A DNA stretch of 32,812 nt, from the NCBI GenBank assembly GCA_002457235.1, contig NTJV01000007.1, positions 1 through 32,812 of the forward strand, given 5' to 3'. The position numbers were made by a program, and so were the translations under genes. The DNA comes from Puniceicoccaceae bacterium MED-G32 (GTDB lineage Bacteria > Verrucomicrobiota > Verrucomicrobiia > Opitutales > Coraliomargaritaceae). Below the pieces are notes generated by a model. That model saw only the letters and a list, made by a program, of their open reading frames with translations, had not been told where the DNA came from and did not search any database. Shown piece after piece: positions 18,098-22,683 of the stretch (positions are counted from its first letter, which is position 1; each line of letters begins with the position of its first letter).

Positions 18098-18196
18098 GCA
18101 AGAATAATAAAAAAATCGATAAAATTAAGGTGTATGCTTGACTTGCTCATGCAAAAAAACAAACTCCGCAAATCTTGCACTTTTTGCATTACAATC

Positions 18197-21016
18197 ATGT
18201 CGATTGACCTAAAAAATACACTTAATCTACCTCAGACCGAATTCCCAATGCGGGGTGATTTGGTACGCAGGGAACCCGAAAGAATTTCACATTGGAACAA
18301 GCTCGGTCTTTATCAAGCCATTGCCGAAAAAAATAAGGGCAATGAGAGCTTCATTTTGCATGATGGCCCACCTTTCACTAATGGTAATTTACACTTAGGT
18401 CATGCACTAAATAAAACTCTAAAAGATACCATTCTTAGATATAAATGGATGCAAGGTTACAATGCTCCATATATACCAGGATGGGACAGCCATGGATTGC
18501 CCATTGAATATAAAGTTTCTAAGGAGCTTCAAGAATCGGGTAAAACTGACTATACTGTACTCGAAGTCAGAGAAGAATGTGCCCAATTTGCAAATAATTT
18601 TAAGCAAATACAATCAAAGCAATTTTCACGTTTAGGAGTCTTAGCTGATTGGGAAAATGAATATTGGACAATCCATCCAGAATACGAAGCCGAAGAACTT
18701 AGAACATTTGCTAAGTTTGTTGAAAAAGAACTCGTATACCGCAGCAAAAAGCCAGTTTATTGGTCTATTCCCTGCAAAACGGCACTTGCTGAAGCCGAAA
18801 TCGAATACAAAAACCATAAAAGTATCTCAGTTTACATCAGCTTTGCATTAAACGAAAAGGCAAAACAAACCCTTCAGCTGACTGAAGACGCTAGTTTTGT
18901 CATTTGGACGACCACCCCTTGGACACTTCCTGCAAACCTAGCAGTAGCAGTTCACCCAGAAATTGAATATGCTTTAATCGAAACTAATAAAGGGAATTTA
19001 ATTATCGCCAAAGATTTAATCGAAACGACGACTGAAACTTGTTCACTTGAAAACGCAAAGATTCTGAAGACTTTTAAAGGTCAGTCATTAGAAAATTTAC
19101 AAACCCAACACCCTTTTATAGATCGCTTAAGTCCAGTTGTGTTAGCCGACTATGTAACAACGGAAAGCGGAACTGGTTGCGTTCACACAGCACCAGGACA
19201 CGGTCTAGATGACTATCTAACAGGACTCAAATACAAGCTTGAAATATATTGTCCACTCGATGATGAAGGCAGCTATATAAATGATGGACAAATACCCGAA
19301 ACTCTTATTGGACAATCTGTTTTAGAAAAAGAAGGCTCTATCAGTGATGCCAACCGAGCTGTCTTAAAAATATGTGCTGAAAACAATAGCTTACTGTCCA
19401 AAAAAACCATTGAACACAGCTACCCGCATTGCTGGCGTTCCAAGACTCCTGTGATTTTTAGAGCCATGGATCAGTGGTTTATTGCTCTCGATAAAGACAA
19501 AACTCGTGACAAGGCAATCGAACAACTTTCTAAAGTAAGATTCATCCCAGAATGGGGAGAAAAACGAATGCGAGCAGCTGTAGAAAATCGTCCTGACTGG
19601 TGTATAAGCCGACAGCGTTCTTGGGGCGTACCTATACCAGCATTTTATGACGAAGACGGAAATGCTTACATTGATGCAAAAGTTACTGAACAAATCGCAG
19701 ACAAAGTCGAAACCCAAGGAACTAACTTATGGTTTAAAGAATCAGCAGAGACGATTTTAGAAGGTATTCAATGCCCTGCTGATTGGCCCAGCACTGAAAA
19801 TCTCAAATGCGGAATGGATACTCTTGATGTATGGATAGATTCTGGATGCAGCCATCGTTCAGTCTTACAAAAAAGAAGTAATTTATATAGCCCTGCTGAT
19901 CTTTACTTAGAAGGAAGCGATCAACATCGAGGCTGGTTTCAGAGTTCACTTTGGACCGGAATTATTGCTGATGATGCTGCACCTTTTAAAAGTATTTTAA
20001 CCCATGGCTTTATTGTAAAAGAAGATGGCACTAAATTATCTAAAAGCGATGGCGCTGCACGACCACTTGAAGTATGGATCAAGAAATATGGTGCTGATAT
20101 TATTCGTCTTTGGATTTGCTCACAAGATTATCGTGGAGATGTACCTGTATCTGATAAAATTGTTAGTAATGTTGCTAATAACTATAGAACGATACGAAAT
20201 ACTTTAAGATTTCTAATTGGAAATCTACATGACTTTAATCATGAAAAGGATGCGGTCGCTTTGGAGGACTTACACCCTCTAGACCAATGGGCACTTCATC
20301 AATTATCTCAATTGGTTGAACAAGTTACACAGGCTTATGATGCCTACGAATTCCATCGTGCATTTAAGGAATATATTGATCCCTTCTGTGCGAATACCCT
20401 CTCAGCAACCTATCATGCAATCTTGAAGGATAGACTCTATACTATGGCGCCAAATGACCCAAGTAGACGTTCTTCCCAAACTGTATTGCACCACATATTC
20501 TCTACCTTTACTAAACTAATTGCTCCCTTGTTACCCTTCACGGCTGATGAAGCATATGCTTTCTTCGATACAAATACAGATTTTGCTGATAGCTCGATAG
20601 CATTGAAAGAGTGGCCTAAGAAAAATAAAGACTGGGAATTCAAGCAATCTGCTGATGATATCAACCAACTTCTCAAATTCTTAAATAATCACCTTAACGA
20701 AAAATTAGAAGCACTACGTCAAAAGAAAACCATTGGTCAAAGCTTAGATGCTAAGGCAATGATATCAGGCCCAAGTAGCGATCCAATGATTCAGTTACTC
20801 AAAAAATACGAAGAAGATTTAGCTGAATTATTTATTTTATCACAAGTCGAAGTATCACTTGATGAAAACAAAAGTGACCTAGAAATATCTGTAGCTCATG
20901 CCGATGGAGAAAAATGTCCAAGAAGTTGGCGTTGGGTTCCTGAGCTTGTTGATACTGATCAATGGGGACCTGTATCACCTCGATGCAAAGAGGCCCTTAA
21001 AGCCCTCAACCTATAA
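18197..21016 (+). CDS. ileS: Isoleucyl-tRNA synthetase with degenerate C-terminal zinc ribbon
   Basis: Class I aminoacyl-tRNA synthetase charging tRNA(Ile), with a CP1 editing domain that hydrolyses Val-tRNA(Ile). From ATG 18197 it is 939 residues, as expected for bacterial-type IleRS. HLGH (66-69) and KLSKS (613-617) are the nucleotide-binding signatures; TTTPWTLPANLAVAV and GTGCVHTAPGHG mark the editing domain; WDSHGLPIE is also present. The family's C-terminal CxxC...CxxC zinc ribbon reads CPRS...SPRC here: C907 and C930 are kept while S910 and S927 replace the other two. I preferred this start over ATG 18134 because MSIDLKNTLNLPQTEFPMRGD is where the family begins; the 21 extra residues look non-conserved. 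The DksA-like gene and lspA follow. Confidence 0.96.
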   Translation: MSIDLKNTLNLPQTEFPMRGDLVRREPERISHWNKLGLYQAIAEKNKGNESFILHDGPPFTNGNLHLGHALNKTLKDTILRYKWMQGYNAPYIPGWDSHGLPIEYKVSKELQESGKTDYTVLEVREECAQFANNFKQIQSKQFSRLGVLADWENEYWTIHPEYEAEELRTFAKFVEKELVYRSKKPVYWSIPCKTALAEAEIEYKNHKSISVYISFALNEKAKQTLQLTEDASFVIWTTTPWTLPANLAVAVHPEIEYALIETNKGNLIIAKDLIETTTETCSLENAKILKTFKGQSLENLQTQHPFIDRLSPVVLADYVTTESGTGCVHTAPGHGLDDYLTGLKYKLEIYCPLDDEGSYINDGQIPETLIGQSVLEKEGSISDANRAVLKICAENNSLLSKKTIEHSYPHCWRSKTPVIFRAMDQWFIALDKDKTRDKAIEQLSKVRFIPEWGEKRMRAAVENRPDWCISRQRSWGVPIPAFYDEDGNAYIDAKVTEQIADKVETQGTNLWFKESAETILEGIQCPADWPSTENLKCGMDTLDVWIDSGCSHRSVLQKRSNLYSPADLYLEGSDQHRGWFQSSLWTGIIADDAAPFKSILTHGFIVKEDGTKLSKSDGAARPLEVWIKKYGADIIRLWICSQDYRGDVPVSDKIVSNVANNYRTIRNTLRFLIGNLHDFNHEKDAVALEDLHPLDQWALHQLSQLVEQVTQAYDAYEFHRAFKEYIDPFCANTLSATYHAILKDRLYTMAPNDPSRRSSQTVLHHIFSTFTKLIAPLLPFTADEAYAFFDTNTDFADSSIALKEWPKKNKDWEFKQSADDINQLLKFLNNHLNEKLEALRQKKTIGQSLDAKAMISGPSSDPMIQLLKKYEEDLAELFILSQVEVSLDENKSDLEISVAHADGEKCPRSWRWVPELVDTDQWGPVSPRCKEALKALNL

Positions 21017-21049: not shown

Positions 21050-22141
21050 ATGGCAACTCAAAAAACGAATAAAAATAAAAAAGTAACTACCAAGAAAGCT
21101 GTCAAAAAAGTGGCTAAAAAAGCCACCAAGAAAGTGGCAGCTAAAAAAGCTACTATTACAAAGAAGCCCACTAAAAAAGTCGCAGCAAAAAAGGCTTCCA
21201 CCAAGAAGACCGCTTCAAAAGCTTCCACCAAGAAGACCGCTTCAAAAAAAACTGCTGTAAAGAAGACTCCAGTAAAAAAGACTGTAGCTAAAAAAGTAAC
21301 TAAAGCTGTCATTAAGAAATCTGCTACTAAGAAAATTGTGAAAGCAAAACCAGTAGCTACAAAAGCGAAGAAAAAAGCTTCATCTAAAGCAACCATTTCC
21401 AAGTCGGTACAATTAAACTCAGATCAAGGAGAGAAATCAGATAATACAAGAAATGCACCTATCGTCTTTTCTCTCGAAGATGTTGAAGCCCTTGTTGCCA
21501 ACAGAAAGGAAGATGCCAGTGAAGCAAAAACTAAGGTAGCCAAAAAGAAAGCTTCAAGCAAAGCCACAAAAGCAGTTAAAGTTAAACCCGCTAAAGTTCA
21601 AAAGCACGCCGCTGCTTCAATTGCTGATATCCTTGGATTTAATCCCAACCAGAAAAAATCTTCTGAGAATGTATCAGAAAAGGATATCCCAGCTAAATGG
21701 AAAAAATACTATAAACTATTACTCGAATTAAGAGACCATGTTAAGGAAGAGTTAGCCTTACACACTTCAGAAACTTTAAAACAGTCATCCAAGGAAAACT
21801 CAGGAGATTTATCTGGCTATGGTAGCCATCAGGCGGATGCAGGTACCGAGACTTTTGACCGAGACTTTGCATTGGGAATTCTATCGAATGAGCAAGACGC
21901 TTTAAATGAAATCGAAGAAGCTATTTACCGAATTAAAAATGGCACTTATGGTATTTGCGAAGAGACTGGTAAACCGATTAATAAACAACGTCTGACAGTC
22001 GTCCCATTCACACGATTCTCATTAGAAGGACAAGTTGCATTTGAAAAAAATAACCGTAAGCGTCGAAATAAATTAGTGACTGGACTCTTCGAAGATAATT
22101 CAGATTCATTAAATCTTGGTTTAGACTCAGACGATGAGTAA
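21050..22141 (+). CDS. DksA/TraR-family protein with histone H1-like lysine-rich N-terminal tail
   Basis: The 363-residue protein has three parts. Residues 1-120 are almost only Lys, Ala, Thr, Val and Ser in KKA/KKT/KKV repeats, like the H1 C-terminal tail and chlamydial Hc proteins, and should bind DNA or RNA. Residues 121-215 are a linker with a second basic patch (160-185). Residues 216-335 are a DksA/TraR domain: a coiled coil with an acidic tip region (QADAGTETFDRD, 261-272), then YGICEETGKPI and PFTRFSLEGQ, the zinc-finger region. Of four zinc cysteines only C303 remains; T306, S324 and G327 occupy the others, as in zinc-free Bacillus YteA/YocK-type relatives. It likely binds RNA polymerase or nucleoid. 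It lies 33 bases after ileS and 23 before lspA. Confidence 0.85.
   Translation: MATQKTNKNKKVTTKKAVKKVAKKATKKVAAKKATITKKPTKKVAAKKASTKKTASKASTKKTASKKTAVKKTPVKKTVAKKVTKAVIKKSATKKIVKAKPVATKAKKKASSKATISKSVQLNSDQGEKSDNTRNAPIVFSLEDVEALVANRKEDASEAKTKVAKKKASSKATKAVKVKPAKVQKHAAASIADILGFNPNQKKSSENVSEKDIPAKWKKYYKLLLELRDHVKEELALHTSETLKQSSKENSGDLSGYGSHQADAGTETFDRDFALGILSNEQDALNEIEEAIYRIKNGTYGICEETGKPINKQRLTVVPFTRFSLEGQVAFEKNNRKRRNKLVTGLFEDNSDSLNLGLDSDDE
21194..21247 (+). repeat. Perfect 27-bp tandem duplication in the lysine-rich tail
   Basis: Bases 21194-21220 and 21221-21247 are identical over 27 bp, encoding ASTKKTASK twice (residues 49-57 and 58-66). Identity at every third codon position is unlike the surrounding KKx repeats, which vary in codon use, so this is probably a recent in-frame duplication by slippage or unequal recombination. 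Unit length is a multiple of three, so copy-number change would not break the frame. Confidence 0.9.
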
Positions 22142-22164: not shown

Positions 22165-22683
22165 ATGTCTAAAATTTTATATTTTCGATTATTTGGAATC
22201 GCGGGATTTACCTTAGTTTTCGATCAAATAACTAAAGTTTTAATTCAATATTCGATACCATTCGAAAGTAGCTACTTTCCTCCAGATCGAGTTACCGTTG
22301 TTGAGGATTTCTTTTATTTAGTTCATATCGGAAATAAAGGAGCGGCATGGGGTATGTTTTCTGAATACAGTGGAATTTTAACTCTCTTATCATTTGCTGT
22401 GCTTCTTTTTATATACTTTTTTAGAAAACATTTAGAATTACATAATGGCTCGGTACAGGTTGCTTTCGGGTTACTTATTGGGGGTATATTGGGTAATTTA
22501 ATCGATCGAATTCGAGTGGGTCATGTAATTGATTTCATTGATGTTCATTTACCATTCACTCTGCCTTATATTTTGCCTTCTGGGCGTTGGCCTGCATTTA
22601 ACATCGCAGACAGCGCCATCGTCATTGGAATGTTGTTTTATTTATTCTTAAGTCTATCCTTCACCAATAAGAAAATTCATTAG
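22165..22683 (+). CDS. lspA: Lipoprotein signal peptidase (signal peptidase II)
   Basis: Inner-membrane aspartic protease that removes signal peptides from prolipoproteins after lipidation. The 172 residues span four membrane helices (about 6-24, 69-86, 96-113, 146-168). Predicted catalytic aspartates are D123 in GHVIDFIDVH and D149 in FNIADSAIVIG; GNKGAAWGMF and GNLIDRIRVG are further family motifs. It follows the DksA-like gene by 23 bases. It implies lipoprotein maturation, consistent with the probable lipoprotein at the right end of the window. The stop is TAG. Confidence 0.96.
   Translation: MSKILYFRLFGIAGFTLVFDQITKVLIQYSIPFESSYFPPDRVTVVEDFFYLVHIGNKGAAWGMFSEYSGILTLLSFAVLLFIYFFRKHLELHNGSVQVAFGLLIGGILGNLIDRIRVGHVIDFIDVHLPFTLPYILPSGRWPAFNIADSAIVIGMLFYLFLSLSFTNKKIH

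Follow-up and report, generated by a model that had tools for sequence, protein, structure and literature searches.

DksA is an RNA polymerase-binding protein and the textbook partner of ppGpp. A zinc site formed by four cysteines (C4) is usual in the DksA/TraR superfamily, yet it is dispensable, being absent from DksA2 and from the Chlamydia protein. The structures of these zinc-deficient relatives from Chlamydia trachomatis and Pseudomonas aeruginosa have already been solved. In E. coli DksA, roles have been assigned to the residues at the ppGpp contact positions, and the K98A and R129A variants still bind the polymerase and shorten the lifetime of promoter complexes but do not support ppGpp (PMC7676912). 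Moreover, the activity of E. coli DksA increases when the N-terminal 18 residues are removed, and docking models place its N-terminal helix in a clash with the rim helices (PMC4370453). It has also been reported earlier that RSH enzymes are missing from PVC bacteria (PMC3153485). Basic tails have been described on other proteins. For instance, CarD is functional with its native HMGA-like tail, with histone H1 or the C-terminus of H1 in its place, and partly even without a tail (PMC8156234). Lysine repeats are present on the Streptomyces proteins TopA, HrdB, Ku and HupS (PMC7398561), and such tails are thus a recurrent add-on.

Here, we describe a DksA-like gene from the metagenome-assembled genome (MAG) of Puniceicoccaceae bacterium MED-G32 (671 kb, 71% complete); its closest named relatives go under the names Puniceicoccaceae, Opitutales or Opitutia. 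The window is the whole stretch of 32,812 nucleotides that was analysed. New here are the replacement of the ppGpp site-2 residues in a lineage in which the synthetase is mostly missing, the matching tail of RpoD and the order-wide FSLEDV helix. The features of the locus are summarised in Table 1.

Table 1 Features of the DksA-like gene and its conserved neighbours in the window
Feature	Position	Strand	Evidence
ileS, conserved neighbour upstream of the DksA-like gene	18134..21016	+	profile match, locus comparison
DksA-like gene, 363 aa, stop included	21050..22141	+	ATG start; profile matches, predicted model
Tail, residues 1-120, Lys/Ala/Thr-rich, disordered, net +46	21050..21409	+	composition; pLDDT <50
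27-bp tandem duplication within the tail	21190..21247	+	sequence repeat
Helix motif FSLEDVEALVANRK, residues 140-153, kept in the window's order	21467..21508	+	alignment of relatives, model
Segment AASIADILGFNP, residues 188-199, aligned with E. coli DksA N-terminal SLSILAIAGVEP	21611..21646	+	alignments; PRK10778 match
DksA coiled coil and globular domain, residues 213-340	21686..22069	+	profile, model, structural comparison
Degenerate zinc site C303, T306, S324, G327	21956..22030	+	alignment to zinc ligands
Acidic C-terminus, residues 346-363, low confidence in model	22085..22138	+	alignment, model
lspA, conserved neighbour downstream of the DksA-like gene	22165..22683	+	profile match, locus comparison

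Family identity and predicted fold

The original prediction had proposed a DksA-type domain at the C-terminus, and this assignment is borne out by the Pfam profile of the DksA/TraR superfamily (PF01258), which is matched with 28.9 bits versus a cut-off of 24.9; the protein is the sole match to this profile in its MAG. The best NCBIfam match is yteA (TIGR02890; 9e-26, residues 216-339), although its 90.9 bits remain below the cut-off of 134.4, and the match to the NCBIfam model DksA_like (5e-15) is under the curated cut-off as well. The cut-offs of the DksA equivalog models are not reached (TIGR02420, 45.6 versus 115.5 bits; NF033459, 55.7 versus 105 bits), and the protein has no Pfam match to CarD_CdnL_TRCF at E<=10. 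The PRK10778 profile match begins at residue 183. Among the PDB sequences, those of 6ptg from C. trachomatis (2.6e-17) and of 4ijj, the DksA2 from P. aeruginosa (9.5e-11), are matched.

An AlphaFold model, built from an alignment of 14 window/locus sequences and reaching a mean pLDDT of only 54, predicts with moderate confidence a disordered tail, a helix comprising residues 142-154 and a hairpin with a globular part as in DksA. The predicted fold is thus a DksA fold, and DksA entries are top-ranked in both structural comparisons; the chains 4ijj_B (Z 10.1), 1tjl (Z 9.0) and 5vsw_M (Z 8.8) were found with the model, DksA2 being the best PDB match of the fold. The non-DksA rows of the structural alignment are helical hairpins without family meaning. 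Because of the low mean pLDDT, and because a Z score of about 10 is indecisive alone for helical hairpins, the family assignment comes mainly from the sequence. Judged in this way, the protein is the Verrucomicrobiota orthologue of DksA and belongs to the branch of YteA and the Chlamydia protein. At the tip of the coiled coil, the D74 position is occupied by aspartate in 75 of 82 aligned rows, with a register that moves by one residue between alignment methods. D263 is invariant in alignment A2, the tip register differing by one in the E. coli alignment, and the tip of the window protein carries H in place of D71 and G in place of A76.

Distribution, neighbourhood and conserved motifs

The gene is present in 55 of 57 relatives and in 184 of the 194 Verrucomicrobiota genomes sampled. 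In close relatives, tail and DksA domain are encoded by a single ORF and not by separate genes. The order ileS, DksA-like gene, lspA is found in all those of the loci L032-L044 whose contigs span both sides, and the ileS/lspA setting recurs in 6/7 further families of the order. Across the phylum, lspA lies near the gene in 35 of 60 loci. The gene represents an ordinary DksA homologue that nearly all Verrucomicrobiota possess and not a one-off fusion.

The layout is the same in close relatives: behind a basic tail of variable length come the helix motif FSLEDVxALxAxRK and a basic linker, then the segment AASxADILGFNP, which precedes the DksA domain and the acidic C-terminus. Of 33 order-level ORFs, 32 contain a loose FSLEDV pattern, which also occurs in seven other families of the order but in none of the 53 loci outside it. 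In the window protein, a second basic stretch, weaker than the N-terminal tail, covers residues ~160-187. In alignments with E. coli DksA, the counterpart of the AASxADILGFNP segment is the stretch 11-22 (SLSILAIAGVEP), where the PRK10778 match also starts, and the AASLADILGFNP motif is therefore ruled out as a novelty. It is missing from most Verrucomicrobiota outside the order, with the exception of one further clade, so that loss elsewhere or convergence are both possible. Since the segment corresponds to the N-terminal segment of DksA and since the deletion of 18 residues affects the E. coli protein, the tail is attached to a part of DksA with a regulatory function, which it may modulate. 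The C-terminus is conserved, of the DDDE type and of a charge opposite to that of the tail; it could serve for intramolecular shielding of the basic tail.

Zinc site and ppGpp site

The residues C303, T306, S324 and G327, which the original prediction had named exactly, correspond in the alignment to the zinc ligands C114, C117, C135 and C138 of E. coli DksA. Among the ligand patterns seen in 82 aligned rows are CTSG (21), CCCC (19) and CSTC (15), and the first zinc cysteine is present in all 82. By parsimony, the number of cysteine ligands changes 13 times on the domain tree, from which the ligand columns were excluded and which has few columns and many unresolved forks. C4 members in the families f34, f42, f44, f61 and f62 have basic tails. 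Because many lineages with all four cysteines are also tailed, the loss of zinc and the tail are separate events. The idea that both form a meaningful combination finds no support, and that of a single linked invention had to be given up, as C4 lineages bear tails of the same kind and the zinc state has changed repeatedly.

At the ppGpp contact positions L95, K98, R129 and K139 of E. coli DksA, the window protein has A284, E287, V318 and Q328, respectively; according to the alignment, the site-2 residues are thus not kept (K98E, R129V, K139Q). Among the 82 aligned rows, K98 is replaced by E in 71, R129 by V, I or L in 71 and K139 by Q in 69. The losses of the zinc site and of the ppGpp site are likewise separate, because DksA2 retains the residues of the ppGpp site. 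Profile searches detected a RelA/SpoT domain in 11 of 14 controls but in none of 19 near genomes, among them that of the window itself, and in 4 of 60 genomes across the phylum, leaving 56/60 without it. A non-exhaustive search of the open-access literature found no work tying the absence of RSH enzymes to an altered DksA site.

The basic tail

The N-terminal 120 residues had been described as a lysine-repeat tail, which is confirmed. Lysine, alanine and threonine account for 38%, 18% and 16% of the residues, aspartate and glutamate are lacking altogether, and the pI is 11.7. The 46 lysines correspond to a nominal binomial P of 4e-23 versus a background of 6.8% lysine, which was taken from the remaining ORFs of the window, and the most lysine-rich stretch of 100 aa holds 42 lysines versus at most 14 in the other window ORFs. 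The likeness to histone H1 holds for the Lys/Ala-rich, disordered composition but does not extend to the profiles of linker histones, Hc1 or HC2, for which the Pfam search at E<=10 gave no match to the protein. Searches of the open-access literature brought up no lysine-tailed DksA.

Most Verrucomicrobiota lineages carry a K/A/P-rich tail on the DksA-like protein. These tails occur at 40-68% GC across the phylum and their lysine content is uncorrelated with GC (rho -0.14, P 0.33), which rules out that they are a by-product of AT bias. Several apparently tail-less members (f23c, f36, f79, f81, f89) are first-ATG artefacts, as their open frames extend upstream into basic sequence. The tail might be near-neutral low-complexity sequence whose length changes through slippage and tandem duplications and which is tolerated on account of its disorder and of its position away from the domain's working face. 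Indeed, its length ahead of the FSLEDV motif ranges from 51 to 231 aa within one family, it is very short or missing in L040, L152 and the families f30, f35, f41 and f54, and the 27-bp tandem duplication fits a drift of tail length by slippage. However, such tails recur phylum-wide regardless of GC, they nearly lack acidic residues and the same tail type is borne by RpoD. Moreover, in two close relatives lysine columns are kept more often than other columns (40/47 versus 54/83, P 0.015), a difference that depends on the alignment of repetitive sequence. A near-neutral tail is thus an unlikely explanation. We rather favour the view that the tail is probably an accessory of drifting length that has no separate histone function.

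The original prediction had also offered a structural nucleoid protein that uses the DksA fold as a module, which would make it an H1 analogue. The composition of the tail would suit such a role, as would the lack of an HU/IHF match (PF00216) in the MAG, a negative that is limited by its incompleteness (71% complete). This reading fits poorly, however, and appears very improbable, because the DksA domain is conserved far better than the variable tail, almost tail-free members exist, the ileS/lspA neighbourhood is shared with C4 members and histone-type profiles are not matched.

A matching tail on RpoD

With the tail alone as the query, only two loci were matched in the same genome, the DksA-like gene and the start of rpoD. 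The RpoD protein of this genome (L155:1468-1989, G000:C18) begins with KKA sequence of some 120 residues, followed by region 1.1 (PF03979, 2.4e-15), and its gene sits behind a dnaG-like ORF. RpoD tails are found in most members of the family and in much of the phylum, though not everywhere; for instance, in two f13 genomes DksA bears a tail and RpoD does not. The lengths of both tails are correlated in 11 genomes of the family (rho 0.73, P 0.01, kinship uncorrected) but not across the phylum (rho -0.16, P 0.25), where a co-scaling of the tails thus fails. The RpoD tails of family f34 (L214, L223; genomes G066, G168) are His/Ala/Lys-rich and not Lys/Ala-rich.

Polyphosphate is a serious alternative partner of the tail. 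The non-covalent lysine-polyphosphate modification needs lysine-dense stretches, with positives having nine lysines in 20 aa (PMC12077175), and the H1-like protein AlgP has been found with polyphosphate granules (PMC9239181). In a lineage in which no ppGpp synthetase was detected, starvation might even be sensed via polyphosphate instead of ppGpp. However, the same tail on RpoD suits DNA at least equally, and it seems rather improbable that another polyanion, either polyphosphate or rRNA and ribosomes, is the main partner.

Proposed role

The DksA-like protein is probably a ppGpp-independent regulator of the secondary channel, to which the polycationic tail adds non-specific affinity for nucleic acids, so that it would work like CarD. 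The coiled coil would enter the secondary channel of RNA polymerase, and the globular domain would fold zinc-free like those of DksA2 and the Chlamydia protein. Like the K98A and R129A variants from E. coli, the protein may destabilise promoter complexes with no need for ppGpp. The flexible tail, which adjoins the N-terminal segment of DksA, would bind DNA or RNA non-specifically and thereby raise the local concentration or the residence time of the factor at the transcribing polymerase, in the manner of the HMGA/H1-like tail of CarD. Thus, the initially proposed regulator that acts on the polymerase and is at the same time anchored to nucleic acid stands as the best mechanism left, with both the tethering and the binding to the polymerase as presumed parts. 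A more tentative idea, which we regard as possible but doubtful, is that in Verrucomicrobiota without ppGpp synthetases the H1-like tails of two polymerase-bound factors, the DksA-like protein and RpoD, link transcription to the nucleoid or to condensates of polyanions and replace part of the tuning by ppGpp.

The chief interest lies in a ppGpp-blind site where the synthetase is largely missing and in H1-like tails on two transcription factors, the DksA-like protein and RpoD. As nearly every genome of the phylum retains a DksA-type protein although the contact residues are gone and most genomes also lack the synthetase domain, a ppGpp-independent role of DksA can be tested directly. If the tails of the DksA-like protein and RpoD do bind DNA, they would represent a further bacterial case, after CarD, in which the polymerase is regulated via a histone-like disordered tail.

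Comparison with known systems

The nearest solved relative by sequence is the DksA-type protein from C. trachomatis (6ptg). In it, too, the first zinc cysteine is the only one left (pattern CSTS); it has the tip HQAD-GT, but it comprises 132 aa in the PDB chain and lacks both the lysine tail and the FSLEDV motif. The DksA2 protein from P. aeruginosa (4ijj), which is the top structural match, has a zinc-free DksA fold as well. In contrast to the window protein, it contains two cysteines, retains the K98, R129 and K139 positions and the DxxDxA tip, and is untailed. Moreover, DksA2 is a second paralogue for zinc starvation (PMC9213440), whereas the window gene is the sole copy. E. coli DksA shares the coiled coil, the globular domain and an N-terminal segment like SLSILAIAGVEP, but it possesses the C4 zinc site and the ppGpp site-2 residues and has no tail. 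The Bacillus YteA family (TIGR02890) is the best NCBIfam match, yet below the cut-off, and its model leaves the tail uncovered.

Two further systems carry comparable tails. CarD from Myxococcus xanthus resembles the DksA-like protein only in the way it works, combining a polymerase-binding domain with a basic, disordered HMGA/H1-like tail that can be swapped for histone H1; its polymerase-binding domain is unrelated and acts on the beta subunit, and its tail is C-terminal. The Streptomyces proteins TopA, HrdB, Ku and HupS bear H1-like lysine repeats on DNA-transacting proteins, a primary sigma factor among them, but the host proteins are others and do not include a DksA.
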